Shown piece by piece: positions 4,051 through 45,435 of a stretch of 64,000 nucleotides of DNA (its first letter is position 1; each line of letters starts with the position of its first letter). Location: the NCBI RefSeq assembly GCF_000711295.1, contig NZ_JOMJ01000003.1:323001-387000 (forward strand), written 5' to 3'. This stretch comes from Desulfohalovibrio reitneri. GTDB lineage: Bacteria; Desulfobacterota; Desulfovibrionia; Desulfovibrionales; Desulfovibrionaceae. The notes below the pieces were generated by a model, which made no database searches, was not told the origin of the DNA, and saw nothing but the letters and a program-made list of their open reading frames with translations. The translations under genes were made by a program, and so were the position numbers.

Positions 4051-4052
4051 CG

Positions 4053-5053: not shown

Positions 5054-5088
5054 TTGACCCGCTCCCGCGCCGGGAGGAAAGTGCGGCC

Positions 5089-5571: not shown

Positions 5572-5602
5572 AAAAAGGGCGGCCCCGGCCGGGACCGCCC
5601 TT
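5571..5602 (-). terminator. Intrinsic terminator of the por operon
   Basis: An inverted repeat of 14 bp with one mismatch spans 5575-5602 (AAGGGCGG core). It is followed, in the leftward direction, by six T residues (complement of 5571-5576). It sits 20 bases after the porB stop and just after the trmO stop, so it can serve both. Confidence 0.85.
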
Positions 5603-5621
5603 GGCGACGCCGCGCGGGAGG

Positions 5622-6584: not shown

Positions 6585-7749
6585 AACTCTTGACCCCCCA
6601 GACGGTGTAGCCGCCGTCCAGCTCGCCGCCGGACGCCCGGGCGTATATTTCGCGGAAGTCCTCGGTGGTCACGTCGCGACCGCCCAGCCCGGCGATGACG
6701 TTGACGATCTCCGGTGCGTCGTCGCGGCCGTAGAAGAGGCTTTTGATGTCCACGGCCAAGGGGCCGTTGATGCAGCCTGGGGAGAGGGCGCGGTCGATGA
6801 CGATGATGCGTTCCGCGCCCCGGCAGGCCTCGAGGAACTCCTCCTCGGGGAAGGGCCGCCACAGCCGCAGCCGCACCTGCCCCACGTCCTCGCCGTCCTT
6901 GATGAGGCCGTCCACGGCGGTCATGCAGGTCTCGCCCAGCGCGCCCATGGTCAGGAAGAGGGCTTTGGCGTTCTCCTTGCCGTTTTTCTCCACCAGCTCG
7001 TAGCGTCGGCCGAACTGATCTGCGAAGCGGTCCAGCACTTCCTTGACCACCGGCTTGGAGCCGAGCAGGGCCTGCTCGCATTGCACCTTGGCCTCGGTGT
7101 AGACCTCGGGCATGCCCACCGGCCCCATGGTCACGGGGTTCTTGGGGTCCAGCCGCATGGCGGGCTCGTAGGCCGGCAGGAAGGCGTCCGCCTCCTCCTG
7201 GTCCGGCACCACCATGGGCTCGATCATGTGGGAGAGGATGAAGCCGTCCATGTTCACGGCCACCGGCAGCAGCACGCGGTGGTCCTCGCCGATGGCGAAG
7301 GCCGCCAGGGTCAGGTCCAGCGCCTCCTGCCCGTTTTCCACGAAAAGTTGCACCCAGCCGATGTCCTTTTCGGCCATGATGTCGGAATGGTCGTTCCAGA
7401 TGGAGATGGGGCCGGAAAGGGCGCGGTTGGCCACGGTCATGACCATGGGCAACCGCATGGAGGAGGCGATGAAGAGGATCTCGTGCATCAGGGCCAGTCC
7501 CTGCGCGGCAGTGGCCGTGTACACCCTGGCCCCGGCCGCGCCCGCGCCCACGGCGGCGCTCATGGCCGAGTGCTCGGACTCCACCGGGATGAACTCGGCG
7601 TCCAGATGGCCGTTGGCCACGTACTCGGAGAGTTCCTCGACAATATGGGTCTGCGGGGTGATGGGATAGGCGGAGACCACGTCCACGTTGGCCAGCCTGG
7701 CCGCCTCGGCCACACCAAGGGAGACTTCGGTGCCGATGCGCTTGCCCAT
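6577..7749 (-). CDS. porA: 2-oxoacid (probably pyruvate):ferredoxin oxidoreductase, alpha subunit
   Basis: 390 aa, the usual length of a separate alpha subunit. The N-terminal pyrimidine-binding domain has SAYPITPQTHIVEEL near 25-39 and the catalytic glutamate region PVESEHSAMSAAVGA near 55-69. The C-terminal transketolase-type domain ends with IVNVIAGLGGRDV near 350. It pairs with PorB to form the ThDP active site in the cytoplasm. It overlaps porD by one base upstream and porB by 8 bases downstream, giving the order delta-alpha-beta in one operon. No gamma subunit gene is present within or next to it (see findings). Confidence 0.92.
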   Translation of the reverse strand: MGKRIGTEVSLGVAEAARLANVDVVSAYPITPQTHIVEELSEYVANGHLDAEFIPVESEHSAMSAAVGAGAAGARVYTATAAQGLALMHEILFIASSMRLPMVMTVANRALSGPISIWNDHSDIMAEKDIGWVQLFVENGQEALDLTLAAFAIGEDHRVLLPVAVNMDGFILSHMIEPMVVPDQEEADAFLPAYEPAMRLDPKNPVTMGPVGMPEVYTEAKVQCEQALLGSKPVVKEVLDRFADQFGRRYELVEKNGKENAKALFLTMGALGETCMTAVDGLIKDGEDVGQVRLRLWRPFPEEEFLEACRGAERIIVIDRALSPGCINGPLAVDIKSLFYGRDDAPEIVNVIAGLGGRDVTTEDFREIYARASGGELDGGYTVWGVKSYA

Positions 7750-30624: not shown

Positions 30625-31827
30625 ATGAACGCGGCCGATACCGGTTTCATCCTCATCTGCGCCGCCCTGGTCATGTTCATGACCCCGGGGCTGGCGCTGT
30701 TCTACGGCGGAATGGTCCGGGCAAAGAACGTGCTCGGCACCCTCATGCAGAGCTTCATCCTCATCGGCGTGGTCAGCGTCGTCTGGGCCGTGCTGGGCTA
30801 CTCCCTGTCCTTCGGAACGGATATCGGGGGCTTCATCGGCGGACTGGATTTCGTCGGCCTGTCCGGCGTGGGCATGGGCGTGGAGAACTCCCCCGCGGAC
30901 AACCTCTCCCACCTGACCTTCATGATCTTCCAGTGCATGTTCGCGGTAATCACCCCCGCGCTCATCACCGGCGCGTTCGCCGAGCGCATGCGCTTCCCCG
31001 CCTTCCTGGCCTTCTCCGTGGCTTGGCTGCTGGTGGTCTACGCCCCCATGTGCCACTGGGTCTGGGGCGGCGGCTGGATGGGCGAGATGGGCGCGCTTGA
31101 CTTCGCGGGCGGCGCGGTGGTCCACATGAGCTCCGGCGCGGCCGCGCTGGCGGCCTGCCTGGTCATCGGCCCGCGCAAGGGCTTCCGCAAGGAGCCCCAC
31201 ATGCCGCACAACCTGCCCATGACCCTGCTTGGCGGCGGAATCCTCTGGTTCGGCTGGTTCGGCTTCAACGCGGGCAGCGCCCTGGCCGCGGACGGCCTGG
31301 CCGCATCCGCCTTCGTGGCCACACACCTGGCCGCCTCCGCCGGAGCCCTGGGCTGGATCGCCGTGGAGTGGAAACACGCGGGCAAGCCCACCACCCTGGG
31401 CGCGGTCTCCGGCGCGGTGGCGGGACTGGTGGCCATCACCCCGGCCGCAGGGTTCGTCACTCCCATGCCCGCCATCGTCATCGGCTTGTTTGCCGGCGGC
31501 ATCTGCTACGGCGGCGTGCTGCTCAAGACCAAGCTCGGCTACGACGACTCCCTGGACGTGGTCGGCATCCACGGCATCGGCGGCACCTGGGGCGCTCTGG
31601 CCACGGGCCTGTTTGCCTCCATCGGCGCCGAGGGCCTGTTCCACGGCAACCCGGAGCAGCTCTGGATCCAGTTCGTCTCCGTGGTGGCCACCTGGGTCTA
31701 CTGCTTCGCCGCCAGCTTCATCCTGCTCAAGCTGGCCGACGCTTTCTTCGGCCTGCGTGTGAACGACGAGGACGAGGTGCGCGGCGTGGATGTTGCCGAG
31801 CACTCCGAGGCCGGGTACCAGATCTAA
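30625..31827 (+). CDS. amtB: Ammonium transporter AmtB
   Basis: 400 aa with eleven membrane segments. Amt marks are present: MTPGLALFYGGMVRAKN near 13-29 (outer gate Phe/Trp region), the first pore histidine in GAVVHMSSGAAALA near 165, and the second in VGIHGIGGTWGALATGLF near 312-329. The trimer conducts ammonia across the inner membrane and is closed by PII binding to its cytoplasmic face. The gene order amtB-glnK is the ancient and near-universal arrangement. Expression is probably RpoN dependent (promoter at 30562). Confidence 0.97.
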   Translation: MNAADTGFILICAALVMFMTPGLALFYGGMVRAKNVLGTLMQSFILIGVVSVVWAVLGYSLSFGTDIGGFIGGLDFVGLSGVGMGVENSPADNLSHLTFMIFQCMFAVITPALITGAFAERMRFPAFLAFSVAWLLVVYAPMCHWVWGGGWMGEMGALDFAGGAVVHMSSGAAALAACLVIGPRKGFRKEPHMPHNLPMTLLGGGILWFGWFGFNAGSALAADGLAASAFVATHLAASAGALGWIAVEWKHAGKPTTLGAVSGAVAGLVAITPAAGFVTPMPAIVIGLFAGGICYGGVLLKTKLGYDDSLDVVGIHGIGGTWGALATGLFASIGAEGLFHGNPEQLWIQFVSVVATWVYCFAASFILLKLADAFFGLRVNDEDEVRGVDVAEHSEAGYQI

Positions 31828-32178
<351 letters not shown>

Positions 32179-32183
32179 GGGGC

Positions 32184-34613
32184 ATGTCCCCCCTGGCCGT
32201 GGAGCGACTGCTGGCCGGACGGCGGGCCCTGTTTGAAACCAGGGCTCGCGGTCCGGCCGCTTTGCGTTCTCTGGCCGGAGACCACGCCCGGCTGGCGGAC
32301 GCCTGCTTGGCCGAGTTGGCGGGCGGGGACTGGGGAGGCTCCCTCTGCCTCGCCCAAGGCGGCCACGGACGGGGCGCGCTCTGCCCGGGCTCCGACCTGG
32401 ACCTGCTTTTCCTGTTCCCCGAACCACCCGGCGAGGAGGCCGCCGCCAAGCTGACCCGCCGCCTGATACGCCCCCTGTGGGACGCGGGACTGCGGGTGGA
32501 CTACAGTTTGCGCGGCCTGGAGGAATGTCTGGATCTGGCATCCTCCGATCCCAAGGTGGCGGCCGAACTGCTGGATGCCCGCCCCCTCCCCGGCCAGGAG
32601 CGGTCCGGCCTCGTTCGCGACCTGCGGCTTGGGCTGACGCGGCGGGTGGACCCCGGCGCGTTCCGCGACTGGCTGCTGGAGCGGCGCAGGCCGTATTCCC
32701 TGCTTTCCCCGGACCTGAAGATGGGCCGGGGCGGCTGGCGCGACGCCGCCTCCATCGGCTGGTTGGCCCGGCTTTCCGGCCGTCCTGTGCCGCCCCTGGA
32801 AGCCGGGGCCCTGGACCGGGCCGAGGCGATGCTCGTGGCCGCCCGCTGGGCGCTGCACCTGCAGCGGGACAAGCCCGCCGAGCGGCTGGAACACCCCCAC
32901 CACCGGGCAGTGGCGCAAGCCATGGGGTTCGCGGGGGAGGAGGTCCCCTGGATGCTGGGGGAACTGCACCGGGCCATGGAAACCGTGCACCTGGGGCTGG
33001 AGTCCGTCCTGTACGGCCGCGCCCCCTCCTACGCGCGGCTGCGTTCCTTCCCCCGTCTCTGCGGCCTCCTGGCCGACGGGCCGCCCCCCGGCCTTGCGGA
33101 GCGCGAGGCGATTCGATCCTCTCTTTCCCGAACCGCGCGGTTGGGCCCGGAATCCCAGGTATCTCTGGACGCCCTGCTGGACCTGCTGGCCGCGCCCAAC
33201 GGCTGGGAGCGGGCCTGCCGCCTGTTGGATTTGGGCGGGCTGGACGGGCTGCTGCCGGAGTTCACTGCCACGGCCCACTTCACTCCCATGGACGGCCTGC
33301 ACGAGCTGGCCAACGGCCGCCACGCCCTGCGCACCGCGGCCCGGCTTGCCGCGCCAGATGACGACACGCCCCGGACGGTGCGGGAGATGCTGCCCCGCGC
33401 CGGGAGCCGCCGCGCCCTGGTGCTGGCCGGACTGCTGCATGACGCGGCCAAGGGCGGGGAGGAGCACGAGCATCGCGGCGCGGACTTGGCGCGGGTGGTG
33501 CTGGGCCGATTGGGCGAGCCGGAGGGGGTGATCGAGGAGGTGGCCTTTCTGGTGGAGCGCCATCTGCTGCTGCCCCTGGCCGCCCAGCGGGGCGACCCTT
33601 CGGATGAGACGTCCGCCGCCCGCGCGGCCGCTTTGTGCGGTTCCCCGGAGCGGCTGGCCTCCCTGGCCGCGCTTGCGGCGGCGGACGGCTCGGCCACCGG
33701 GCCGCGCGCCTGGGGCGACTGGCAGGAGCACCTGCTGGGCGACTTCGTCCGCCGTGCTCTGGCCCAGTTTACCTCCGGGGCGCTGGCCGAGCCCCACGCA
33801 GCGGAGACCATCCTTCGCCGCCGCGACCGCTTCCGGGTCCTGGCCCCGGACAAGGCCGAGGCGGAACGCTTTCTGGACGCCGCTCCGCCGCGCTATCTGC
33901 TGCGCACCCCGGCGGAGGAGATGGCGGCCCATCTGGACCTGTACCGTGACTACCTGCGGGCGGCGGAGGAGGACCGGGCGCGGCGCACCTCACGTTTCGC
34001 CGGACTGGGGCTGGTGGTGCAGCGCGCCAGGGATCGCCTGGATCTGGGCGCGGTGGAGCTGACCATCGTCGCCCCGGACCAGCCGCGCCTCTTCGCCATG
34101 CTCTGCGGGGCCTGCGGCCTGCACGGGGCGTCCATCCTGGAGGCCTCGGCCCACACCTTTTCCCCGGGCGGGCAGGGCATGGCCCTGGACGTCTTTCTGG
34201 TGGAGCCGCCCCCGGCGGCAGCGGAGGAGTTCGGCGAGCGGGTGGCCCGCGACGTGCGCTGGGCCGCCACGGGCAAGCTGGACCTGGCCTACCGGCTGGC
34301 CCAAAAGCGGGCCTCGCCCCTGGCCCCCGGCCCGGACGCGCCCGCGCCCGGGTCCGTGGTGCGGCTGTCGGACGGGGAGGATGGGGCTCCGGCCACCATT
34401 GAAGTGGAGGCCGGGGACAGGCTGGGGCGACTTTTCGATCTGGCCAGCGTGCTGGCGGATTTCGACCTGCGCATTCTTTGGGCGCGGGCCTCCACGTCCG
34501 AGGGGCGCATTGGCGATGTATTCCGGGTGCGGGGGCCGCAGGGGGCCAGCCTGGGGCCTCCGGCCCTGCGGGAGGAGCTGCGCCGCGCCCTGCTGGACGT
34601 CCTGGCGGAGTGA
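32184..34613 (+). CDS. glnD: PII uridylyltransferase/uridylyl-removing enzyme GlnD, divergent
   Basis: 809 aa, slightly short for GlnD. The nucleotidyltransferase site is GGHGRGALCPGSDLDLLFLF near 58-77, with the two aspartates, and LLDAR near 130 is also typical. SPDLKMGRGGWRDAASIGW near 173-191 corresponds to KEGPGGLRDI. The uridylyl-removing HD domain has HDAAKGGEEHEHRGADLA near 419-436, but the usual H-Y-T-V-D-x-H stretch is replaced by HFTPMDGLHELANG near 371-384. Two ACT domains (about 615-690 and 735-805) sense glutamine. GlnD uridylylates PII when glutamine is low. Confidence 0.9.
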   Translation: MSPLAVERLLAGRRALFETRARGPAALRSLAGDHARLADACLAELAGGDWGGSLCLAQGGHGRGALCPGSDLDLLFLFPEPPGEEAAAKLTRRLIRPLWDAGLRVDYSLRGLEECLDLASSDPKVAAELLDARPLPGQERSGLVRDLRLGLTRRVDPGAFRDWLLERRRPYSLLSPDLKMGRGGWRDAASIGWLARLSGRPVPPLEAGALDRAEAMLVAARWALHLQRDKPAERLEHPHHRAVAQAMGFAGEEVPWMLGELHRAMETVHLGLESVLYGRAPSYARLRSFPRLCGLLADGPPPGLAEREAIRSSLSRTARLGPESQVSLDALLDLLAAPNGWERACRLLDLGGLDGLLPEFTATAHFTPMDGLHELANGRHALRTAARLAAPDDDTPRTVREMLPRAGSRRALVLAGLLHDAAKGGEEHEHRGADLARVVLGRLGEPEGVIEEVAFLVERHLLLPLAAQRGDPSDETSAARAAALCGSPERLASLAALAAADGSATGPRAWGDWQEHLLGDFVRRALAQFTSGALAEPHAAETILRRRDRFRVLAPDKAEAERFLDAAPPRYLLRTPAEEMAAHLDLYRDYLRAAEEDRARRTSRFAGLGLVVQRARDRLDLGAVELTIVAPDQPRLFAMLCGACGLHGASILEASAHTFSPGGQGMALDVFLVEPPPAAAEEFGERVARDVRWAATGKLDLAYRLAQKRASPLAPGPDAPAPGSVVRLSDGEDGAPATIEVEAGDRLGRLFDLASVLADFDLRILWARASTSEGRIGDVFRVRGPQGASLGPPALREELRRALLDVLAE

Positions 34614-34614
34614 G

Positions 34615-34791
34615 TCAGGACTCGTCGTCGTCGCGGTCCTCGTCCCGCTTCTTCTCCTCCACCATGCGGTCTCCGCAGCTGGGGCACCGCTCACGGTGCT
34701 CCTGGCTGTCGTGGCGCTTGCCGCAGGTGGGGCAGACCTTGGTGGCCAGCTTGCGGACGAGGTTGATCATGTTGAAAAAGAGGGGGTTCAT
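34615..34791 (-). CDS. Small zinc-ribbon protein, 58 aa
   Basis: ATG 34791 overlaps the stop of the antiporter gene (ATGA at 34788-34791), so it is translationally coupled. Two CxxC knuckles, CPTCGKRH near 20-27 and CPSCGDRM near 36-43, form a zinc ribbon. The tail is strongly acidic (RDEDRDDDES). The N terminus MNPLFFNMINLVRKLATK is amphipathic and could touch the membrane. It is too short to be noticed by many gene callers. A role with the antiporter is suggested by the overlap only. Confidence 0.75.
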   Translation of the reverse strand: MNPLFFNMINLVRKLATKVCPTCGKRHDSQEHRERCPSCGDRMVEEKKRDEDRDDDES

Positions 34792-36764
34792 GCCGTCTCC
34801 GGGGAGGCGAAAAGGTTGCGTCGGGCCTGGCGCACCTGCTCCGGTTCACCCGCCAGAAGGAGCAGGTCGCCCACCTCCACCAGGTCGTTGGCCCCCGGCG
34901 TGAGCCGGACGTTCTGTCCTTGCTTGCGTATGGCCAAGATGGATACGGAATGCTCCTTGCGCAAGGCCAGCTCGCCAAGGGTTTTGCCTTCCGCCCCGGC
35001 GCCCGGTTCCACCCGCACGTGCGCCACCTTCATGTCCGGCAATCTGGTTTCCACCAACTCCGGGCGCACCGTGGGGCGGGCCATGGCGTCCCCGGCGCGC
35101 AACTCCTCCAGGAACCCGTCGATTTCCCGCTCCGGCACCAGCCAGGTGCGCAGCATCCGGGCCACCATCTCCACCGAGGCCTCCATCTCGGAGGTTACCA
35201 CGTCGTCCGCGCCCATGTCGCGGAATTCCTTGAGATCGGTGAGAAAGGTGGAGCGCACCAGGATGCGCACACGCGGGTTGAGGCGGCGCACTTGGTCGAC
35301 GGCCCTGCGGGATGCCACCGGGTCGGACACGGCCACGGCCACCATGCGGGCGTTCTCGATCCCCGCCTCCTCCAGGATGTGGGAGGAGGTGGCGTCGCCG
35401 AAGGAGATGGGCTCGCCGTGGGAGGCCTCGGTGCGCACGGTGTCCGGATTGCCCTCGATGATCCAGTAGGGCACCCGCCAAGCCTTGGCCGCCTGCACCA
35501 CGTGGCGGCCGGTGGGGCCGAAGCCGATGACCACCAGATGGTCGCGCAACTCTTTGTGCCCGCCCGTGTGGGGGCGTCCGGGAGCGGGCAGGTGCAGTCG
35601 GCTGGTGGCCCTGGCCACCCGCGACCCGGCGGCCAGCACAAAGGGCGTGGCCACCATGGTCAGCACGGCCGCAGCCAGGAAAAGCTGGTATTCCCGCTGG
35701 GGCAGAAGCCCCACCGCCTCGCCCTGCCTGGCCAGCACAAAGGAGAACTCCCCTACCTGGAAGAGGGCGAAGCCTGTCAGCAGGCTGGCCGCCAGTGGGA
35801 GGCCCGCCAGCCGTCCCGCCCCGGCCGCCAGGGTGAACTTGAGCACCCCCAGCCCCAGAGCCAGCCCCAGCACCAGCCAGGGGTTGGAGAGGACAAAGCC
35901 CACGTCCAGCAGCATGCCCATGGAGACGAAGAAGAAGCTCAGGAACACGTCGTGGAAGGGCAAAATGGAGGCCGCGGCTTGGTGGCTGTACTCCGACTCG
36001 GATATGGTCAGCCCGGCCAGGAAGGCCCCAAGGGCGAAGGACATGCCCAGGGCGTTGGACAGCGCGGCCACGCCCAGGCAGATGCCCACGATGGCCAGCA
36101 GAAAGGTCTCGTTGGAGCGGGTGCGGGCCACCTGGTGCAGGAGCCAGGGCACGGCGGTGTTGGTCAGCACCAGCACGCCGCCCACCAGCAGCCCCGCCTT
36201 GCCCACCATCACCGCCAGGTCCCACATGGGGCTGCCGCCGCCTTGCCCGGCCAGAAGCGGAATCAGCAGCATCATGGGCACCACGGCGATGTCCTGGAAG
36301 ATGAGTATGGCCAGGCAGGCGTTTCCGTGGGGCGCGTCTATCTCGCCTCGGTCCTTGAGCAGCTTGAGCACGATGGCGGTGGAGGACAGGGCGGTGATGA
36401 AACCGATAAAGACGGCCCCGGGCAACTCCCGTCCCGCCAGCAACAGGGCCAGCAGGGCGGCCGCTCCCAGGGTGAGCAGCACCTGCCCGCCGCCACCGGC
36501 CAGGGCCAGCCGCTTGATGGAGCCCAGCCGCTTGACCGAGAACTCCAGGCCGATGACGAAGAGCAGGAGGATGACGCCGATTTCGGCAAGGATTTCGATG
36601 TCGTGGGCGGAGTGGACCACCTCCAGCCCGTGCGGGCCCATGGCCACGCCCGTCAGCAGAAAGCCAACGCTGGCGGGCAGGCGCAGCCGGTGGCAGAGAA
36701 AGACCATCCCCGCCGAGACGCACAGGACCAGGATTATGGCGTCGAGCAGCGGCGGCGCGTGCAT
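34788..36764 (-). CDS. CPA2-family monovalent cation:proton antiporter with TrkA-N and TrkA-C domains
   Basis: 658 aa. Residues 1-385 hold about twelve membrane segments with the Na_H_Exchanger fold (SVGFLLTGVAMGPHGLEVVH near 32, VILLLFVIGLEFSVKRL near 68, SSTAIVLKLLKDRGE near 130). Residues 405-520 form a RCK/TrkA-N Rossmann domain with VVIGFGPTGRHVVQAAKAW. A TrkA-C domain follows near 570-650. KefB/YbaL-type proteins export K+ or Na+ in exchange for H+ under nucleotide control. It is three bases after the octaheme cytochrome stop, in one operon. Confidence 0.93.
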   Translation of the reverse strand: MHAPPLLDAIILVLCVSAGMVFLCHRLRLPASVGFLLTGVAMGPHGLEVVHSAHDIEILAEIGVILLLFVIGLEFSVKRLGSIKRLALAGGGGQVLLTLGAAALLALLLAGRELPGAVFIGFITALSSTAIVLKLLKDRGEIDAPHGNACLAILIFQDIAVVPMMLLIPLLAGQGGGSPMWDLAVMVGKAGLLVGGVLVLTNTAVPWLLHQVARTRSNETFLLAIVGICLGVAALSNALGMSFALGAFLAGLTISESEYSHQAAASILPFHDVFLSFFFVSMGMLLDVGFVLSNPWLVLGLALGLGVLKFTLAAGAGRLAGLPLAASLLTGFALFQVGEFSFVLARQGEAVGLLPQREYQLFLAAAVLTMVATPFVLAAGSRVARATSRLHLPAPGRPHTGGHKELRDHLVVIGFGPTGRHVVQAAKAWRVPYWIIEGNPDTVRTEASHGEPISFGDATSSHILEEAGIENARMVAVAVSDPVASRRAVDQVRRLNPRVRILVRSTFLTDLKEFRDMGADDVVTSEMEASVEMVARMLRTWLVPEREIDGFLEELRAGDAMARPTVRPELVETRLPDMKVAHVRVEPGAGAEGKTLGELALRKEHSVSILAIRKQGQNVRLTPGANDLVEVGDLLLLAGEPEQVRQARRNLFASPETA

Positions 36765-36767
36765 ACC

Positions 36768-38267
36768 CTATTCGCGCTCCACTCCGGTCCGCAGGTCGCG
36801 CCAGTCCTCAAGCTGGCGGATGGTGCGCATGAGCTGGTAGCGGCCGTCGGCGAAGACGCCGTAGTCACCGCCCCCGGCCATGGCCGAGGAAAAGCGCACC
36901 GTATTTGCGTAGAACAGCCACGTGGTGCTCCAGGTGCGCTCGATGTATTCGTCGAAGATGGAGTCGCCCTGGGCGAGGCCCTTGGCCAGTCCGTCCTCCC
37001 AGATGGACTGCATGATCCGCGTGCCCGCCAGTGTGGTCTGGTTGGTCTCCTGGATGACCTGCTCGAAGTTGTCCCAGTGGCCGTCCACCCATGCCTCGCC
37101 GTGGCAGGAGCGGCAGACCGCCTGCATGGTTTCCCGCCGCTCGTCCATGGTCTCCTTGTCGATGAGGAACTCGGAGGCGGGTTCGTTGTCCAGTGTCGTG
37201 GGCAAGGGCAGCCCGTTGGCGTTTTTAATGGTGTGGGTGGTGGGCTCCTTGGGCTGGGGGTGGGCGTAGGGCAGCCCGAAGATGCGCCAGGGCAGGCGGT
37301 CGCTGACCGCGTGGGTTCGCTCGGCCACCACCTCGCCCTCGGGAGTCGTTACCAGGGAGATGTGACAGGTGGCGCAGGTGGGGGCGGTGAAGTCCTTGCC
37401 CACGGTCCATGGCACATTGGAGAAGTTCCAGCGCTTCTTCCCGATTCCCTCGTAGATGTTGCCGTGCTTGGAGGCGGAATAGACCTTGTAGGCCGGCACG
37501 TCCGGGCCGTTATGGCACTCCTTGCAGGTGGCCGGGGAGCGGGCCTGCTCAATGGCGAAGGTGTGGCGGGTGTGGCAGGCCGCGCAGGATCCCTTGGAGC
37601 CGTCGAGGTTGACGCGGCCCACTCCGTTGTTGGGCCAGCCCTTGATGACCGGAAAGTCCATGGGGCCGTACATGGTGTCGCGCGTTTTGGTGCCGGTCAC
37701 TTCCAGCTCGGTGCCGTGGCAGTAGAAGCAGGCGTCCGCGTTGGCCGCGTGGCTGGGTTCGGCCTGCACCATCTCGCCCTGATCGTTGCGCGAAGGCACG
37801 CCGTTGATGGTTCGCACCAAGTCGGTGAAGACCGGGTTTTTCGTAAGGTTGGCCCGGGCGTGGGCCATGATGTTGTCGCTGTACTGCTCCCGCTCGGTGG
37901 CGTGGCAGGTGGCGCAGTCGTCCGGGCTGGTGGCGATGTGTACCTGGTAGCCCATGTGGTCGAAGGTGTCGGCGTGGGCGTCGTGCCGGATAGTGTGGCA
38001 TTCGGCGCAGCCCACTGCCGTGCCCCGCAATTCCTCGGGCACGTCCTCGCTGGACACCTTGCGGGCGTTTCCTTCCACTTGCATCGCCTCGCCCGGGGTC
38101 ACGGCCCGGTGGCGGGAGGAACGCCATCCTTCAACGATGCCCGGGTGCAGGGTCTCGTGGCAGGACAGGCAGTCCTGGGTGGCGCTGGACAGGGAAGGCG
38201 CGTCGGCGGACTGGGCGGACGCGGGCATAACGAGAAAAGCAAGCAGGAAAAATGGAAGAAATCGCAT
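36768..38267 (-). CDS. Octaheme c-type cytochrome, hydroxylamine oxidoreductase (HAO) family
   Basis: 499 aa with a signal peptide (MRFLPFFLLAFLVMPASA). Eight CxxCH heme sites are visible: CLSCH, CAECH, CATCH, CFYCH, CAACH, CKECH, CATCH, CRSCH. After the last heme comes a helical tail with TWLFYANTVRFSSAMAGGGDY near 448-468, typical of the HAO fold. The periplasmic family includes hydroxylamine oxidation with P460 and the reductive epsilon-type enzymes acting on nitrite or hydroxylamine. Whether a P460 cross-linking tyrosine is present cannot be judged without an alignment; in an anaerobe a reductive role is more likely. Confidence 0.88.
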   Translation of the reverse strand: MRFLPFFLLAFLVMPASAQSADAPSLSSATQDCLSCHETLHPGIVEGWRSSRHRAVTPGEAMQVEGNARKVSSEDVPEELRGTAVGCAECHTIRHDAHADTFDHMGYQVHIATSPDDCATCHATEREQYSDNIMAHARANLTKNPVFTDLVRTINGVPSRNDQGEMVQAEPSHAANADACFYCHGTELEVTGTKTRDTMYGPMDFPVIKGWPNNGVGRVNLDGSKGSCAACHTRHTFAIEQARSPATCKECHNGPDVPAYKVYSASKHGNIYEGIGKKRWNFSNVPWTVGKDFTAPTCATCHISLVTTPEGEVVAERTHAVSDRLPWRIFGLPYAHPQPKEPTTHTIKNANGLPLPTTLDNEPASEFLIDKETMDERRETMQAVCRSCHGEAWVDGHWDNFEQVIQETNQTTLAGTRIMQSIWEDGLAKGLAQGDSIFDEYIERTWSTTWLFYANTVRFSSAMAGGGDYGVFADGRYQLMRTIRQLEDWRDLRTGVERE

Positions 38268-38316
38268 GGTCGGTCCGGGGTGGTTTGCCCACGCGGGGCG
38301 TTACGGTACAGATATA

Positions 38317-38345
38317 TATATGACCTGCGAAACGGATGATGTCCA
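38317..38345 (-). promoter_or_regulatory. Candidate promoter of the octaheme cytochrome operon
   Basis: On the minus strand TGGACA (one mismatch to TTGACA) is followed after 17 bases by CATATA, inside the run ATATATATA that also allows TATATA at 19 bases. It lies about 50 bases upstream of the cytochrome start. The AT run is the only one in this gap. Confidence 0.45.
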
Positions 38346-38440
38346 GGGGAACCGGGGCGGATGCCCTCGGAGGCTGAGAGGAAGGGGGGCGAAGCGCCGT
38401 CCCCGCTCATGCGGCGGGGACGCGCAGGTCGCGTGGGCCG

Positions 38441-38632
38441 CTACAGGTCCAGCAGCTTTGCCACGCGGTCCGGATCGATGGGGTCGTGGGCTTGATCCAG
38501 GCCGTTTTCCCGGGGGTGCCCGGGCTGCTCTTCCCGGTTGTCGCGCAGGGCTTTGACCAGACGTGCGGGCGCGGGGCCCTGGCGGCGCACGCAGGGGATG
38601 TCGGGCTGGTGGTCGAGTGGACGGGCGCTCAT
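38441..38632 (-). CDS. Small hypothetical protein, 63 aa
   Basis: ATG 38632 has GGAGGT 8 bases upstream, a stronger site than most nearby genes. The product is hydrophilic, rich in proline, arginine and aspartate, with HQPDIPCVRR near 8-17 and a DPIDPDRVAKLLDL C terminus. No membrane segment or family is evident. It lies downstream of the ComFB gene on the same strand but behind a terminator, so it may have its own promoter in the AT-rich stretch at 38695-38730. Confidence 0.6.
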   Translation of the reverse strand: MSARPLDHQPDIPCVRRQGPAPARLVKALRDNREEQPGHPRENGLDQAHDPIDPDRVAKLLDL

Positions 38633-38725
38633 GGGATATACCTCCGCTGGGATGTTCGTTCCGGGGTGCGAACTCCCATGCAGGATCGGAGCCGAGTGAA
38701 AAAAAGTTATACATTATGGTATCAT

Positions 38726-38778
38726 AAAAAAACAGCCAAGGGCGGTCAGCAAACCCTTCCCTAGTCCGCCGGCTGTTT
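38726..38778 (-). terminator. Intrinsic terminator of the comFB-like gene
   Basis: AAACAGCC (38730-38737) pairs with GGCTGTTT (38771-38778), with an inner GGCGG/CCGCC stem. In the leftward direction it is followed by a run of seven T residues. The hairpin overlaps the last codons of the comFB-like gene. Confidence 0.7.
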
Positions 38779-39063
38779 CTGGCCGTGTTTGGGGTGTTTG
38801 CGCACTTGCGTCGCGGCCCGCCGCAACTCGTCGAGAATGTCCTCATCGTCCACCGGCTCCCGCAACACGATGCTGCCGGTCTGCACGTAGCGCGGCCTGA
38901 GGTTGTTCAGGCAGAGGGCATAGATATCCTCCACGTCGAGCGGGTCCGGCGCGTCGCCCAAAACCTCGCGGATGACACCGGGCATGAGCCGGGCCACGCG
39001 CTGTTCGTTTTTGTTGCGCACCTTGGACACGCACTTGCCGCAGAGCAACTCGATGTCTTCCAT
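38761..39063 (-). CDS. ComFB-family protein, probable cyclic-dinucleotide receptor
   Basis: 100 aa from ATG 39063 with GGAGG upstream. MEDIELLCGKCVSKVRNKNEQRV opens the late-competence ComFB fold. DVEDIYALCLNNLRPRYVQTGSIVL near 43-67 is the family block, and the first half has two zinc-type cysteines (CGKC). ComFB proteins were recently shown to bind c-di-AMP and c-di-GMP. It is divergent from a diadenylate-cyclase-like gene with 119 bases between, which would let the messenger maker and reader be regulated together (inference). Confidence 0.85.
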   Translation of the reverse strand: MEDIELLCGKCVSKVRNKNEQRVARLMPGVIREVLGDAPDPLDVEDIYALCLNNLRPRYVQTGSIVLREPVDDEDILDELRRAATQVRKHPKHGQKQPAD

Positions 39064-39182
39064 GGCTCGTTCCTCCATGCATCCCCATACCGCACATGGC
39101 GGTCCGGGCAAAGGGAAATGCGCCGGGGAACGGCTTGTCCACAGAGCGCAATTGGGCAATACTGCGGCCCGCGAGGCACACC

Positions 39183-40625
39183 ATGACCGGAACCTCTTTC
39201 GTCAATCTCTGCATCTTCCACATTCTGGACGGCCTGTCCGACGGGCTGTCCCATTTCTCGCAACCCAGCCGCGCCGCCCTGGTCTACGCCGTGTCCCCGG
39301 ACGACCACCCCCGGGTCTACGATCCCCAGAACCTGCTGGCCGGGCACGAGCGGAAGCTCAAGGAACTCTACCTTGACTCGGACGAGTGGCGGGAGACCGC
39401 CAGGGCCATGACTTCGGCTCGCCGCACCGAGATGGTCCCCCGCGAGCCGCTGTCCCTGTCCGGACTCATCGCCTTCGGCGGCGCCTCCCCGGCCATCGCC
39501 CACCAGATGTGGTTCACCGAGCACCACCCGGACATGTGTTCCGTGGGGCCCACCCGGCGCTGGCTGGAGCACGCCGCCAGGCTGCTGGCCCAGGACCTGG
39601 CCACGGACAACGTTATGTGCCTGGGCACCTCGGGGCACCTGCTGCAGGGCTACACACCCCACGCCGTGCGCGACCACATTGTGGACGAGCGCAATATGCG
39701 CATGGGCTGGGACACCCAGCTGCGCATCTACCCCACCCTGGACGCGGTGCTGAACATTTCCAAGACGGTGGAGGAGGGGAAGTGGCCTCGGGGCAGACTC
39801 CTCTTCGTGGAGCCGGAACTGATGGGAACCATGGAGTTTCTGGCACGTTTCCCGAGGATGGAGGAGCCGGAGTTGGCCAACTCCAAGCATGTGCGCAAGA
39901 TGCTGACCTCTGTGGAGGACAACCCCGCCCTGGCATTGGTTTCCGACGGCAAGCGCATCATGGGCGTGGCCGGGGACGAGCCGCCGCCGGGGAGCTTGAT
40001 CGCGGACTTCCGTGGGAACCACGGCTTTTTGCTGCTGGACGGCGAACCTGTGTGCAGCTTCTCTGACGGGTCCTTCCAATCCACCACCCGCAAGGCCAAG
40101 ATGGTGCAACTGGAGGAGATTCTGCTGGAATCGGACCTGGATCCCTCCACCTCCAACGAGTTGTTCAAGATCGTGGCCGGAATCGTGCACGCAGCCCAGG
40201 ACCGGGGGCACGGCACCACCGTGGTGGTGGATCTGGGCGGGGCCTCCACACCTATGACCGGCCACCATCTCACCGAGCCGCTGGACCTGGGGCAGCCTCA
40301 CGCGCGCTACCTCGCCAGTTCCCTGGCCCGCGTGGACGGCGCGCTGCACATCGGCCGCGACCTGCGGCTGCACGGCTTCGCCTGCCTGCTGGACGGCGCC
40401 AGCGTGCCGGGCGAAAGCCGGGCGCGTGGGGCGCGCTACAACTCCGCCCTGCGCTTCACGCAGATGCATCAGGACATGGTGGTCGTCGTGGTGTCGTCGG
40501 ACAGGCCGGTGTCCATCCTGCAGGGCGGGGTGGAGCTGACGGCCAGGTGCGCCTGGAAACCCCTCTCCAGCCTGCTGGCCCCGCCGCCGCGCCTGGACGC
40601 TTGGCTGCGCCAGGCGGGATTCTAG
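39183..40625 (+). CDS. Diadenylate-cyclase-like (DisA_N/DAC) protein with large N-terminal domain and variant RHR motif
   Basis: 480 aa from ATG 39183 (GAGG upstream). The last 150 residues match the DAC fold of c-di-AMP synthases: VVVDLGGAS near 349-357, then VDGALHIGRDLRLHGFACLL with the DGA motif at 385-387. ARGARYNSALRF follows with RYN at 418-420 where DisA has RHR, and finally VVVVVSSDRPVSIL. The distance from D to R is 33 residues, as I recall for DisA. The N-terminal 320 residues are a distinct domain, perhaps a sensor, with no membrane segment. Catalysis is uncertain because of the RYN variant. Confidence 0.8.
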   Translation: MTGTSFVNLCIFHILDGLSDGLSHFSQPSRAALVYAVSPDDHPRVYDPQNLLAGHERKLKELYLDSDEWRETARAMTSARRTEMVPREPLSLSGLIAFGGASPAIAHQMWFTEHHPDMCSVGPTRRWLEHAARLLAQDLATDNVMCLGTSGHLLQGYTPHAVRDHIVDERNMRMGWDTQLRIYPTLDAVLNISKTVEEGKWPRGRLLFVEPELMGTMEFLARFPRMEEPELANSKHVRKMLTSVEDNPALALVSDGKRIMGVAGDEPPPGSLIADFRGNHGFLLLDGEPVCSFSDGSFQSTTRKAKMVQLEEILLESDLDPSTSNELFKIVAGIVHAAQDRGHGTTVVVDLGGASTPMTGHHLTEPLDLGQPHARYLASSLARVDGALHIGRDLRLHGFACLLDGASVPGESRARGARYNSALRFTQMHQDMVVVVVSSDRPVSILQGGVELTARCAWKPLSSLLAPPPRLDAWLRQAGF

Positions 40626-40647
40626 GGGCGTCGGAAAAACGACGCCC
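40626..40647. terminator. Hairpin between convergent genes
   Basis: GGGCGTCG and CGACGCCC form a perfect 8-bp stem around a GAAAAA loop, immediately after the DAC-like gene and 29 bases beyond the stop of the lysozyme-like gene. No strong T-run follows on either side, so termination efficiency is uncertain. Confidence 0.55.
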
Positions 40648-40675
40648 GCGCGCAGGACGGGTCGGCCTTTCAGGC

Positions 40676-41725
40676 TTACCCGAGCATGGAGTCGCCCGAG
40701 AGCATGGCCAGGGCCATGTTCCGTTCGCTGGCGAAGCGGTTCCGCACCGCCTCCTGAACCCGCTCGGTGGAACCGCCGAACTGTCCGGAACGGATCTCGT
40801 AGACCTTGTCGATGAGGGAGCGGACCAGGTTGCCGTCCAGCCCGCCGGAGTCCAGCCCGCCCAGGGACTCCAGGGCGCGGTTGAAGATGGATTGCGCTCC
40901 GCCCGCGCCGTGCTGCACCGAGGTGGAAAAGAGCACCTCGCGCAGGGCTTCGGGGAGTTGTGATTCCTTCAGCCCGCTCAGGCCGAGGTTTTCCAGCACG
41001 CCCTCCAGGGCGGGCCGGTAGTGGGAGTCGCCCACAAAGGCTCGCTGCAGCTCGGCGAACCGCTCGGGCAGGTCCTGGGCCAGCTCCCGCCAGGCGTCGG
41101 GCATGGCTCCTTGGGTGGAGCCGGTGTTCCCCTCGCCCGCGCCCTCCAGCCGGGAGGCCAGTTCCGGCGCCTGCTGGCGCAGAAAGCCGATGAAGTCCTC
41201 AAGCGTGCCCTGTCTGGAGGAAAGCTGGAAGATGCCGTAGGAGGTGCCTCCCATGCGGTCCCAGCCGATGCGGCCCGGGTCGCCCCCGGACTCGAACAGG
41301 GTGGCCAGCCTGCCGGGAATGTCCTGCTTCCCCGTCTCCTCGCCGGTTTGTTCGGCGGATTGGGCCGCGTTGTCCGCAGATAGCGCGTGTTCGGCCGGGT
41401 TCGTCCCGTCTTGCGTGGACTGCTTCGGCTGGTTCTCGGCCTGGTGTGACTCCTGCAGCTTGGTCAGGGTGGCCAGCATGTCCATGCGCATGGAGGAGCC
41501 CATGTCCTGCGGAGAGAAGGGGGTGCCCGAGGCGGCCGTGCCGCCTCCTTCCTGGGCCATGGACTGCTCCAGGAACCGGTTGGCCATGGAAAGTTCCATG
41601 TTGGCCTGCACCGACTGCAGCGTGGCGCCGAAGTCCGCTTGAGGCGACTGGCGTCGGTTTTCCGGCAGTTCGACGGCGTGGTCGAAATGGTTGATTTGCG
41701 TGGCTTTCAGGGGGATGTGGCTCAT
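40676..41725 (-). CDS. Putative peptidoglycan hydrolase (lysozyme/chitosanase-like C-terminal domain)
   Basis: 349 aa. The first 140 residues are low-complexity, methionine- and glutamine-rich and look disordered. From about residue 145 a globular domain begins with LFESGGDPGRIGWDRMGGTSYGIFQLSS, which has the E plus GGTSYG(I)FQ pattern of lysozyme-like and chitosanase-like folds, the glutamate being a candidate catalytic acid. No signal peptide is evident, so export would need a dedicated pathway. The gene may serve flagellar or secretion machinery or cell-wall remodelling; this is inference. Confidence 0.65.
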   Translation of the reverse strand: MSHIPLKATQINHFDHAVELPENRRQSPQADFGATLQSVQANMELSMANRFLEQSMAQEGGGTAASGTPFSPQDMGSSMRMDMLATLTKLQESHQAENQPKQSTQDGTNPAEHALSADNAAQSAEQTGEETGKQDIPGRLATLFESGGDPGRIGWDRMGGTSYGIFQLSSRQGTLEDFIGFLRQQAPELASRLEGAGEGNTGSTQGAMPDAWRELAQDLPERFAELQRAFVGDSHYRPALEGVLENLGLSGLKESQLPEALREVLFSTSVQHGAGGAQSIFNRALESLGGLDSGGLDGNLVRSLIDKVYEIRSGQFGGSTERVQEAVRNRFASERNMALAMLSGDSMLG

Positions 41726-41768
41726 GCTTCACTCCGCTTGGGGCAGGAGGAAGCAAAGAGCGTGCCGC

Positions 41769-42494
41769 TTACTCCGAGGCCGCGCGGAGGGCGCGCATCA
41801 GCGGGCGGGCGGACCCGGGCACGGCCGCGCCGTGGCCCAGCGCCACTCCGCGCATGGTGGCGTTGTCCCCATAGGACTGGCGAACACCGCTGCGGGAGGC
41901 CGTGATCAGCTGCGTCTTGACCTGCGCGCCCAGCTCGTATCCGGTGGCGTCGGTGAAGAGCACCACCCCGCCCAGGGCCTCGCTCAGGGCCACCTGGTCG
42001 CGGGCCATCTCCTCGCCGCTCACCTGACGCACGTCAGCTCCCAGGTCCATGGAGTTTTCCACCAGTCCGTCCAGGGTGTCGTCGTCCATGACGAGATAGA
42101 GCAGGGATGTCTTGCTGAACCCGGCTTGCACGCCCGCGCCCAGCCAGGTGAGCTTGTAGAATACCGGCGGGCCGAAGCCGCCGTCCACCCCGACTCGCGC
42201 CGTGAGTACACCCCGGCCCGAGCCGCCTTGGAAAACGATGCCCGCGCCGGTGACTTCCGGGAATACCATCACGGCGCGCGCGTTGGGCAGCAGTTCGGCC
42301 AGGGCGGCGTTTTCCGGCTTGGCCGCCAGCCGTTCCACGGCCAGTGCGGATTGCTCCAGCACGTCGGCCAGATGCGGCGGAATCTCCGGCTCGGGCGGCG
42401 GGGTTCCGGAGTTCTTGGCGGAGCAGGCGGCCAGGAGAAGGACCGCCAGCAACAGCGGCAGCGGCGAGCGGATTCGACGCGGAATTATGATCAT
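41769..42494 (-). CDS. SYLF-domain (Ysc84/DUF500) lipoprotein
   Basis: 241 aa. The signal peptide ends in a lipobox (LLLAVLLLAAC, cysteine near residue 24). The mature part has LPNARAVMVFPEVTGAGIVFQGGSGRGVL near 68-96 and a long SYLF domain with LGAGVQAGFSKTSLLYLVMDD near 113-133 and LITASRSGVRQSYGDNATMRG. SYLF proteins bind lipids or membranes. It is likely anchored in the inner or outer membrane by its lipid. Divergent from the heme oxygenase gene. Confidence 0.88.
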   Translation of the reverse strand: MIIIPRRIRSPLPLLLAVLLLAACSAKNSGTPPPEPEIPPHLADVLEQSALAVERLAAKPENAALAELLPNARAVMVFPEVTGAGIVFQGGSGRGVLTARVGVDGGFGPPVFYKLTWLGAGVQAGFSKTSLLYLVMDDDTLDGLVENSMDLGADVRQVSGEEMARDQVALSEALGGVVLFTDATGYELGAQVKTQLITASRSGVRQSYGDNATMRGVALGHGAAVPGSARPLMRALRAASE

Positions 42495-42572
42495 GACTGC
42501 ATACTACAGCCTGCGGCCGGACAGGGAAAGAGCCTCGTATACACCAACGGTTGATTCAGGTAGGGAAGGGCA

Positions 42573-43190
42573 ATGCCGTGTCATATCGAATCGCAAGTCC
42601 CTGGTGATGTTGACGGACTGTTCAGTGTGGTGCGCGAGGCGGTCATGGACCTGCACGACCGGGCAGAATACCACAGCCCCTTGTCGCGGGTGCGGGACAA
42701 GACCGCCGGTCTGGAGGAATACCGCGATGCCCTGGCCCGCCTGCACGGGTTCGTGGCACCCGCCGAGCGGACAGTTGGCCGGGCGCTGGAGGGGCTGATG
42801 GAGTTGTCCTCCAGGCGGCGGCTTTCCCATCTTGAGGACGACCTGCTTTTTCTGGGCCTGTCGCGGGCGGAGATCGACGCCCTGCCCCGCTGCGAGAGCC
42901 TGCCCACGATGAACGAGCCCTCCGAGGCCCTTGGCGTGCTCTATATCCTGGAAGGATCCAGGCTGGGCGGCAAGGTGCTGGCCGCCGCGACCAGGGAAAG
43001 CCTCGGTCTCGCCGGACGCGGATGCGCCTATTTCGATTCCGCCGGTGCGGACGTGGCTCCCATGTGGCGGTCCTTTCGCCGGGAAGCGGCCGGACTGCTG
43101 CCCGATGCCGGCCATCGCCGCCGGTTCGTGGATTCCGCCCGGCGGGGCTTCGAGTTGGTGAACGACTGGCTTGGAGGAACGAGTGGCTGA
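42573..43190 (+). CDS. bphO: Heme oxygenase (biliverdin-forming), BphO type
   Basis: 205 aa. VVREAVMDLHDRAEYHSPL near 19-37 contains the likely axial heme histidine. The distal helix reads PSEALGVLYILEGSRLGGKVL near 112-132, matching the glycine-rich helix of bacterial heme oxygenases. It opens heme with O2 to biliverdin IX-alpha, CO and Fe2+. The start is preceded by GGGAAGGG. Its stop overlaps the bacteriophytochrome gene by 8 bases, a common bphO-bphP arrangement. O2 dependence is noteworthy in a presumed anaerobe. Confidence 0.9.
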   Translation: MPCHIESQVPGDVDGLFSVVREAVMDLHDRAEYHSPLSRVRDKTAGLEEYRDALARLHGFVAPAERTVGRALEGLMELSSRRRLSHLEDDLLFLGLSRAEIDALPRCESLPTMNEPSEALGVLYILEGSRLGGKVLAAATRESLGLAGRGCAYFDSAGADVAPMWRSFRREAAGLLPDAGHRRRFVDSARRGFELVNDWLGGTSG

Positions 43191-45435
43191 GGGGACATAC
43201 ATCGACGACGCCGGCCGCGAGGTGGACCTGTCCTCCTGCGAGCGCGAGCCCATCCACATTCCCGGAGCCATCCAGCCTCACGGTCTTTTTCTGGCCCTGC
43301 GCGAACCGGACCTGACAATCGCTGTGGTTTCGGATAACGTCCAGGATTTTCTGGGGAAGGAAGCGAAGGACCTGCTCGGGACCGGCTTCGAAGAGTTGTT
43401 GGATGAGACGGATGGCCTGCATCGCGCCCTGGCCGAGGACGACCTGGAGCGAGCCAACCCCATGCGGGTCCGGCTGGCCGCGGACGACGCGCCCTACGAC
43501 CTGGCCCTGCACCGCTCCCAGGGGCTCCTGCTGGCCGAGTTGGAGCCCTCGCGCGACCGGGACGCGATTGAATTGGCCCGCCGCATCCGTCTGGCCATGG
43601 CCGATTTGCAGCGGACCGAGGGCCTGCAAGACCTCTTCGAGGCGGCGGTGTGCGTGGTGCGGGACCTGACCGGCTTCGAGCGGGTCATGGTCTACCGCTT
43701 CGACAAGGAGTGGAACGGGCAGGTGGTGGCGGAGGACAAGGCGGATCACCTGACGCCCTATCTGGGGCTGCGCTATCCGGCATCGGACATCCCCAAACAG
43801 GCCAGGGCCCTGTACTCCCTGAACAAGGTGCGCCTCATCGCGGACAGTGCCTACCAGCCCGCCCACCTGGTCCCGGGGGGGAATCCGCTCACCGGCGAGC
43901 CGCTGGACCTCTCCCTGGTGGGGCTGCGCAGCGTCTCGCCCATCCACCGCGAATACCTGGGCAACATGGGGGTGACGGCCTCCATGTCCATCGCCCTCAA
44001 CCGCCGGGAGACACTGTGGGGCATCATCGCCCTGCATGACCACCGGAGCCCCCGCTATCCCTCCTATGAACTGCGACGCGCGTGCGAGTTGGTGGGCGAC
44101 AGCGTGGCCCTGCTCATTTCCGAGCGGGAGGCCATGCGCGAGTACGACGCCCTGCGCGAGAAGGACTCCCTGCGTCGGGAACTGACTGGGCGGATGCAGC
44201 AAGCCGATGATTTCCTTGAAGCCCTGCTCACCGGCAGCCCGGATCTGCGCGACGTGGCCGGGGCCGAGGCGGTGGCCGTCATCTGGCGCGGTGAAGTGCG
44301 CGGCCTCGGACCGCTGCCGCCAGAGAAGCGGCTGCGCGAGCTGGCCGCGGCCATAGCCGAGCGCGACACCGGCGGGCTGTGGGCCAGCCAGTCCCTGCCC
44401 GAGGACCTGCCCGGGTTCGAGGACATTCAAGAGACCGCCTGCGGCGTGCTGGCCGGGGCCATAAACCGCGACCGGCACGAGTACGTGCTCTGGCTGCGTC
44501 CGGAGCGGGCGCGCGTCGTCTCCTGGGGCGGCAACCCGGAGAAACCGGTCCGGGCGAAAGAGGGGGAGTCCGGCCTGGTCCTGCATCCCCGCACATCCTT
44601 CGAGTTGTGGAAGCAGGAGGTGCGCGGGCGGGCCGAGCCTTGGAGCCGGGCCGAGGAGGAGGCCGCCTCCAGGTTGCGGGTGAACCTGGTGGACGAAGCC
44701 ATCACCCGGGCCAACCGGGAACTGCGGCTGGTCAACGAGCGCTTGCGGGAGAAGAACGCGGAGATGGACTCCTTCGCCTATGTGGTCTCCCATGACCTCA
44801 AGGAGCCGCTTCGCGGCCTGCAGTTCCATTCCAAGACCCTTCTGCGCGACCACGGAGACAAGCTGGACGAGAAAGGGATCCACAAGCTGGAGCGCATCAA
44901 GGGGCTCTCGGAGCGCATGACGGGACTGATGGACGCCCTGCTGGAATATTCGCGCATGGGGCGGACGGAGCTTCGTGTCCAGGAGTGCGACCTGAACGAG
45001 GTTGTGGAGAACGTCCTCGAGCTTCTGCGGACCTCGGTCGAGCGGAAGGGCTTCGAGGTGCGGATTCCAGAGCCCTTGCCGTGTGTCAGCTGCGATCCGG
45101 TCAAGATCGGCGAGGTCTACAACAACCTGATTTCCAATGCCCTCAAATACAATGACAAGGCCGAAAAGTGGATCAAGCTTGGCGCCGACGAATCGAACGG
45201 TGAAGCTTGGCTGTACGTCCGCGACAACGGCATCGGCATCGAGCAAGAGCACCACGGCGACATTTTCGGCATGTTCAAGCGGTTGCACGGCCGCGAGGAG
45301 TGGGGCGGCGGCACTGGTTCCGGTTTGGCCATGGTGGCCAAGATACTGGAACGGCACGAAAGTTCCATCAAAGTGGAGTCCGAACCCGGGGAAGAAACCA
45401 CATTTTACTTCAATTTACCCCTTTGCGGGGGGTGA
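43183..45435 (+). CDS. bphP: Bacteriophytochrome histidine kinase BphP
   Basis: 750 aa from GTG 43183 (GGAGG upstream). The bilin-binding cysteine is Cys19 in SSCEREPIHIPGAIQPHG. PAS (20-120), GAF (about 135-300) with RYPASDIPKQARALY near 196-210 and SPIHREYLGNMGV near 248-260, and PHY (310-490) follow. The kinase part has the H-box FAYVVSHDLKEPLRG with His near 537, a dimerisation helix, and ATPase motifs NNLISNALKYN, DNGIGI and GGGTGSGLAM. Light absorbed by biliverdin controls autophosphorylation; the partner response regulator is not in the window. Confidence 0.95.
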   Translation: MAEGTYIDDAGREVDLSSCEREPIHIPGAIQPHGLFLALREPDLTIAVVSDNVQDFLGKEAKDLLGTGFEELLDETDGLHRALAEDDLERANPMRVRLAADDAPYDLALHRSQGLLLAELEPSRDRDAIELARRIRLAMADLQRTEGLQDLFEAAVCVVRDLTGFERVMVYRFDKEWNGQVVAEDKADHLTPYLGLRYPASDIPKQARALYSLNKVRLIADSAYQPAHLVPGGNPLTGEPLDLSLVGLRSVSPIHREYLGNMGVTASMSIALNRRETLWGIIALHDHRSPRYPSYELRRACELVGDSVALLISEREAMREYDALREKDSLRRELTGRMQQADDFLEALLTGSPDLRDVAGAEAVAVIWRGEVRGLGPLPPEKRLRELAAAIAERDTGGLWASQSLPEDLPGFEDIQETACGVLAGAINRDRHEYVLWLRPERARVVSWGGNPEKPVRAKEGESGLVLHPRTSFELWKQEVRGRAEPWSRAEEEAASRLRVNLVDEAITRANRELRLVNERLREKNAEMDSFAYVVSHDLKEPLRGLQFHSKTLLRDHGDKLDEKGIHKLERIKGLSERMTGLMDALLEYSRMGRTELRVQECDLNEVVENVLELLRTSVERKGFEVRIPEPLPCVSCDPVKIGEVYNNLISNALKYNDKAEKWIKLGADESNGEAWLYVRDNGIGIEQEHHGDIFGMFKRLHGREEWGGGTGSGLAMVAKILERHESSIKVESEPGEETTFYFNLPLCGG

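Follow-up and report, generated by a model that had tools for sequence, protein, structure and literature searches.

The window analyzed here, a stretch of 64,000 nucleotides from Desulfohalovibrio reitneri, encodes a protein of 480 amino acids that is most likely a sensor controlled dinucleotide cyclase with c-di-AMP as its putative product, as suggested by sequence, structural modelling and analogy. We consider it probable that the product of the gene is a nucleotide cyclase of the DACNH-DAC type, stand-alone and regulated by its own sensor domains, that serves chromosomal regulation, and not one half of a dedicated circuit with the ComFB receptor gene beside it. The source organism is related to the sulfate-reducing Desulfovibrio, and this gene gives it a putative signalling-nucleotide enzyme of a class that is named but unstudied. 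In brief, DACNH-DAC proteins would make up a second DAC class beside CdaA and DisA. The enzyme would most likely convert two ATP to c-di-AMP, its product could instead be another dinucleotide, and the DACND and DACNH domains would control the cyclase. Its role may lie in chromosomal regulation, with linkage to PII and ammonium genes in some lineages. In this lineage the ComFB gene would have come to separate the DAC gene from a cytochrome gene, and ComFB may bind the product of the DAC, c-di-AMP from CdaA, or c-di-GMP.

An earlier note, made from the DNA sequence, suggested that the two genes may form a self-contained cyclic-dinucleotide circuit, and pointed out a variant RHR motif. Its coordinates, gene lengths, divergent orientation, intergenic distance and motif positions proved exact to the residue when the sequence was rechecked (Table 1). 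No sigma-70-like site was reported in the intergenic region.

Table 1. Features of the 480 amino acid protein gene and its surroundings, in positions of the window.
Feature	Position	Strand	Details
amtB ammonium transporter	30625-31827	+	PF00909 2.6e-128
glnK PII protein	31840-32178	+	PF00543 7.2e-34
glnD-like PII uridylyltransferase	32184-34613	+	PF08335, HD and ACT
Kef-type antiporter	34788-36764	-	TrkA_N and TrkA_C; KhtT-like TrkA_C region (phmmer 6.4e-11)
Multihaem cytochrome	36768-38267	-	Adjoins the DAC gene in the relative L038
ComFB gene	38761-39063	-	100 aa; PF10719 2e-9, 37.8 bits, cut-off 25
Divergent intergenic region ComFB/DAC gene	39064-39182		119 bases between start codons
DACND-DACNH-DAC gene, putative nucleotide cyclase of the DACNH class	39183-40625	+	480 aa; ATG at 39183
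DACND domain, residues 5-176	39195-39710	+	PF21749 3.5e-76, 255 bits, cut-off 27
DACNH domain, residues 183-286	39729-40040	+	PF21750 2.6e-29, 101.7 bits, cut-off 27
DAC domain, residues 339-449 (Pfam)	40197-40529	+	PF02457 2.2e-11, 43.8 bits, cut-off 27
DGA motif, residues 385-387	40335-40343	+	Sequence
RYN, residues 418-420, replacing RHR	40434-40442	+	Sequence; GARYNSA context

The 480 amino acid protein matches DACND, DACNH and DAC, in that order and all over the curated Pfam cut-offs. The text of Pfam calls both DACND and DACNH a "probable sensor domain". The N-terminal part, which had been described as a large unclassified sensor, is therefore sensor-like by name and consists of two named families. 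The DAC-fold domain that had been placed at the C-terminus is borne out by the PF02457 match and by a predicted-fold match to CdaA. An AlphaFold2 model of the protein was built from 67 sequences and has a mean pLDDT of 87.9. Its C-terminal part is predicted to share the fold of solved DAC structures, with B. subtilis CdaA as the best Foldseek match (E 1.7e-5) and VIA Z scores of 13.7 against the CdaA-AMP complex (118 residues, 2.4 A) and 13.4 against CdaA-ATP. In the model the DAC fold match spans residues 318-455 and is thus wider than the Pfam domain. A sequence search of the protein against solved structures gave nothing usable, and a profile search gave a weak match to S. aureus DacA only (E 0.058). 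We found no solved structure of the DACNH class by sequence search, and the ComFB sequence likewise had no match among solved structures.

A second model, covering residues 1-304, has a pLDDT of 92.6. Residues 1-146 of this model gave longin/roadblock and GAF-like matches among others, at middling VIA Z scores of 6.5-8.5. The rows in this range include unrelated folds such as penicillin-binding proteins, and the likeness of DACND may just be one of common arrangement. For the DACNH region, four of 50 VIA rows are confined there and all four are DAC structures, namely DacM (7.8), DisA (7.3), CdaM (7.2) and CdaA (6.9), scores that the tool grades as middling. Profile comparison gave no support for a kinship of DACNH and DAC: the hhalign scores of DACNH against two DAC profiles, 13.4 and 12.2, did not surpass those of 30 column shuffles (mean 14.2 and maximum 22.5 for the first profile, mean 12.4 and maximum 19.4 for the second) or those of reversed profiles (16.7 and 17.5). 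Foldseek found no match for residues 1-304 at E <= 0.001 among PDB and viral models. We tentatively suggest from the model that DACNH is a degenerate DAC.

By the Pfam profile, DACND is present in 86 of the 199 genomes of the order, and 86 relatives of the 480 amino acid protein, at 37-61% identity, were found in the order sample. The Pfam matches together with these relatives establish the DAC locus as real, beyond chance. R418 and N420 are found in all 87 rows of an alignment of the protein with its order relatives; position 419 is F in 55 rows and Y in 32. D385 and G386 are equally invariant, and A387 is kept in 86/87. A scan of genome contigs gave 454 relatives, the best 80 of which were kept. 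The titles of these 80 carry Desulfo- names, Deltaproteobacteria, Syntrophobacteraceae and the like, and several read just "Proteobacteria bacterium". R[FY]N occurs in 80 of the 81 rows formed by the best 80 of the 454 relatives and the protein itself, a set that partly overlaps the order alignment (L171 and L266, for instance, come from the same contig), and the exception is a fragment that is gapped there. In the phylum, DACNH was found in 10 of 148 genomes, that of Desulfohalovibrio reitneri included, with GAR[YF]NSA at all 10 loci.

RHR is present in all of the 30 best-scoring loci of a DAC search, the CdaA of Desulfohalovibrio reitneri included. Fifteen further DACs, hand-picked from the remainder of that list and none of them at a position where DACNH had been found, all keep RH; nine have R as the third residue, the other six S, H, I, M or L. 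This indicates that conservation of the third Arg is loose across DACs generally. What sets the DACNH class apart is the loss of His combined with an Asn that is fixed. RYN had been taken as a special variant, a view that is not supported, since R[FY]N is class-wide and R[FYL]N is seen in plasmid relatives.

We compared 87 rows of the class with 27 canonical rows. It should be noted that the rows were picked by motif, a choice that by itself fixes RHR in the canonical rows, R418/N420 in the class and, among the seven plasmid rows, R415, whereas D385, G386, G405, R424, S438 and D440, found in 87/87 class rows, are positions unused in the picking. LPL, present in all 27 canonical rows, is replaced by LDG in the class (D404 in 83/87, G405 in 87/87), and the canonical SEE by SxD. 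The His preceding DGA in 27/27 canonical rows is V, L or I in the class. R415 and R424 are new with respect to the canonical rows and occur in all 87 class rows; these two arginines might offset the lost Arg. The class signature can be written as DG[AST]...LDG...RG[AS]R[FYL]N[SA]...R...SxD. A 2023 survey by Galperin, "All DACs in a row", reportedly treats DAC domain architectures, to go by its title.

The class extends beyond the chromosomes of Desulfovibrionales. Seven plasmid proteins of the DACNH-DAC type come from Dyadobacter, Priestia (three), Citrobacter, Gluconobacter and Phycisphaera. These belong to Bacteroidota, Bacillota, Pseudomonadota and Planctomycetota, four phyla beyond the source phylum, and in the data examined the class spans at least five phyla. 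DACNH was detected in all seven and PF02457 was reported in five; six have R[FY]N, and the Phycisphaera protein has RLN. The Citrobacter and Gluconobacter proteins pass the cut-off of 630 of the NCBI DS2_3 model NF053872, with scores of 804 and 712. Their genes each adjoin genes for a patatin-like phospholipase and a nucleotidyltransferase, and this trio is the gene set reported for the anti-phage system DS-2. The SMODS matches of the nucleotidyltransferases are close to the cut-off of 26.5 bits, at 28.9 and, just under it, 26.4 (Gluconobacter). The DS-2-like trios, with a DACNG-DACNH-DAC protein, lie at 3667-7341 of locus L242 and 3043-6713 of locus L243, on conjugative-typed plasmids of Citrobacter and Gluconobacter. 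The class thereby includes an experimentally supported anti-phage component: when two residues predicted to be catalytic in the DS-2 DAC are mutated, defence is reported to be eliminated (PMC13092281). By analogy, this result lends indirect support to R[FY]N DACs as catalytic.

The departure from RHR is real and can hardly be trivial, since the change of RHR to AAA in M. tuberculosis DacA is reported to abolish both ATP binding and activity (PMC3328451) and the DACNH class is without the His and the third residue. The earlier note offered a binding-only domain as one explanation. Such a domain would be a catalytically dead sensor of a dinucleotide or ATP that signals via the N-terminal domains. 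We regard this reading as unlikely. It would account for the loss of two RHR residues and of the His before DGA, but not readily for the strict conservation of D385, G386 and R418 and the extra invariant R415 and R424; the reported need of the DS-2 DAC, of the same class, for its predicted catalytic residues speaks against it too (PMC13092281). With R[FY]N class-wide and catalytic residues reported as essential in DS-2, a second DAC class with cyclase activity, whatever the product, seems likelier than a binding-only domain. In the literature searched we found no enzyme assay or activity for DACND or DACNH-DAC proteins. The search returned no paper with DACND, DACNV or DACNG, and the sole DACNH match was a paper on ABCG2.

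A working cyclase could also make c-di-GMP, cGAMP or a linear dinucleotide from a changed base pocket, with LDG for LPL and R[FY]N for RHR. The exchange at LPL is consistent with this. The YL of YLPL in CdaA we take to be Tyr187-Leu188; if so, in an alignment with S. aureus DacA, Leu188 corresponds to L403, adjoining D404. Adenine in CdaA is reported to be held by main-chain bonds of Leu188, however, so a change of side chain need not alter the base (PMC10167629). Nor did sequence search yield a solved structure of the class. A product other than c-di-AMP is in our judgement improbable, and we keep c-di-AMP as the putative product of the cyclase.

The genes upstream suggest a lead on what some members of the class may sense. 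The amtB-glnK-glnD genes (30625-34613) run in the same direction as the DAC gene, with three genes, for the antiporter, the cytochrome and ComFB, in between. A Desulfovibrio contig (L171/L266) has the DAC gene immediately after amtB-glnK-glnD; in L038 a single cytochrome gene separates glnD from it, and in L276 there are 2.6 kb between the two. In a genus of another family (12 loci from 11 genomes) glnD is convergent with the DAC gene, the frames ending 3-17 bases apart, and glnK and amtB come next after glnD in 11 of the 12 loci. Altogether, 17 of 149 sources have glnD close to the DAC gene, in two orientations and about two arrangements, and 132 lack the linkage; two of the 17 are one contig, the 149 contain two ComFB loci without a DAC (L267 and L268), the count does not take in 30 loci whose flanks measure about 1.5 kb (L003-L032), and some contigs end near the gene. 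Among the best 80 of the 454 genome-contig relatives, the linkage was found in L171 only. By a rough estimate the chance of direct glnD-DAC adjacency in any one lineage is about 2 in 3,000. Chance would be unlikely to produce two arrangements in two families, and the link of the DAC gene to PII nitrogen control, read from gene order, is accordingly a lead and not a result.

A neighborhood conserved across the family was sought by clustering the neighbors of 137 loci and was rejected. The largest cluster covered 41 loci at mixed positions, and the one representative of it that was scanned had no Pfam match; the others covered at most 15 loci each, one being a 10-locus glnD cluster. The multihaem cytochrome and Kef-type antiporter genes are 3 bases apart; KhtT, which the antiporter resembles in part, represents a c-di-AMP-binding family. 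Downstream of the DAC gene, and also following it in L038 and L171, is a gene (40676-41725, - strand) with a T6SS VgrG3-like C-terminal domain (PF21277 5.9e-27). Further on (42573-45435, + strand) a heme oxygenase gene (PF01126 3.1e-11) overlaps that of a bacteriophytochrome histidine kinase (PAS_2, GAF, PHY, HisKA, HATPase). Heme oxygenase requires oxygen, and the pair sits in a genome whose named relatives are of the Desulfovibrio type.

A more far-reaching reading joins several of these points: a degenerate DAC (DACNH) and a working R[FY]N DAC in one chain would form an internal pseudo-dimer, so that synthesis would need no canonical head-to-head homodimer, product or control would be unlike those of CdaA, the Desulfovibrionales class would report nitrogen status by way of the neighboring amtB-glnK-glnD genes, and its plasmid cousins would have been adapted to CBASS defence. 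Taken jointly, we hold this to be decidedly unlikely.

The proposed circuit, in which the DAC makes the ligand sensed by the divergent ComFB, fits the short distance between the two genes and the reported binding of c-di-AMP and c-di-GMP by ComFB of Synechocystis (PMC12313861). ComFB is present in 90 of the 199 genomes of the order, and together with DACND in 68. The recurrence of the ComFB-DAC neighborhood in Desulfovibrionales that the earlier note wished to see checked was not observed: by a script on PF10719 and PF21749 coordinates, the genes are adjacent in 1 of these 68 genomes, that of Desulfohalovibrio reitneri. The next closest pair is 8.2 kb apart, in G191, where the match to ComFB is a partial one, and the pair after that is separated by 32 kb. 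Both genes are on one contig in 24 of the 68 genomes and on different contigs in 44, which in draft assemblies is not full proof of distance. A neighborhood test with a ComFB profile found only the ComFB gene of Table 1 in DAC loci. That profile caught only 14 of 30 PF10719 loci (L091-L120), so the adjacency is judged from the genome coordinates instead.

The closest comparison comes from L038 (genome G117), whose protein is 61% identical. Its cytochrome and DAC genes are divergent with about 190 bases between them, and the same two genes follow the DAC gene as in Desulfohalovibrio reitneri. ComFB is absent from this gap (tblastn best E 0.49) and is encoded on another contig of G117. The ComFB gene of Desulfohalovibrio reitneri thus occupies a gap that is empty in L038. 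Both an insertion here and a loss in L038 fit; an insertion is the simpler of the two given L171, where glnD and the DAC gene had no gene seen between them, and ComFB may then have arrived late.

Within the family, ComFB is found in 56 of 61 DACND genomes and in 36 of 88 others, more than expected. Counted by genus, uncorrected for ancestry, this is 15/19 against 11/25 (Fisher p 0.03). Such co-occurrence would allow the two to be functionally linked without being adjacent. ComFB was, on the other hand, unmatched in 18 of the 86 DACND genomes of the order, and outside the family 17 of 19 genomes with DACND had no ComFB match in the order sample. The ComFB gene is the sole PF10719 match found in the genome. 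The same genome encodes a canonical CdaA with RHR, in a folP-cdaA-ybbR-glmM-like context (gene names read from sequence, without family search), a 7TMR-HD match of the PgpH type about 8.5 kb from it, and 23 GGDEF matches. ComFB consequently has other possible ligand sources and the locus is not self-contained. With a single adjacency in 68 genomes, matching flanks without ComFB in L038, and these other sources, we find a self-contained circuit very unlikely; from gene order, ComFB looks like a chance neighbor of the DAC gene. A striking divergent gene pair in a single genome can be an accident of synteny.

An anti-phage role like that of DS-2 is extremely unlikely for the 480 amino acid protein: it has the common signature and a weak match to NF053872, but at 53.1 bits this is far below the cut-off of 630 and the protein is not a DS-2 member, no CD-NTase or phospholipase was matched among the scanned neighbors at 30625-45435, and a DACND gene occurs in 86 of 199 order genomes. 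A search of phage records gave no match. A PADLOC match to a CARF model (E 0.01) was taken as chance.

Returning to the stand-alone, sensor-regulated cyclase, anything new sits at the level of the DACNH class and not of this locus. If R[FY]N is the active site with which the class works, enzymes of this kind would be overlooked or misjudged by annotation rules that rely on RHR. The linkage to PII genes would offer a starting point for learning what is sensed by some members in Desulfobacterota.

Compared with known systems, the protein is a full-length member of the Pfam DACND, DACNH and DAC architecture, and we found no difference from it. With CdaA and DisA it shares the DAC fold, DGA and the first Arg of RHR. 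CdaA and DisA have RHR, LPL and SEE, whereas its class has R[FY]N, LDG and SxD, and their N-terminal domains differ from DACND and DACNH; with RYN in place of RHR we do not file it as a CdaA or DisA. The ComFB protein, over the Pfam cut-off, is a member of the ComFB/CdgR receptors (PF10719), for cyanobacterial members of which dinucleotide binding is reported. It has a CxxC (CGKC) near its start that is absent in 14 aligned relatives, a possible metal or redox site. With the third gene of DS-2 (NF053872; DefensePredictor, PMC13092281) the 480 amino acid protein has the DACNH-DAC core and R[YF]N in common; the DS-2 protein has DACNG where this one has DACND, and CBASS neighbors accompany DS-2 only.
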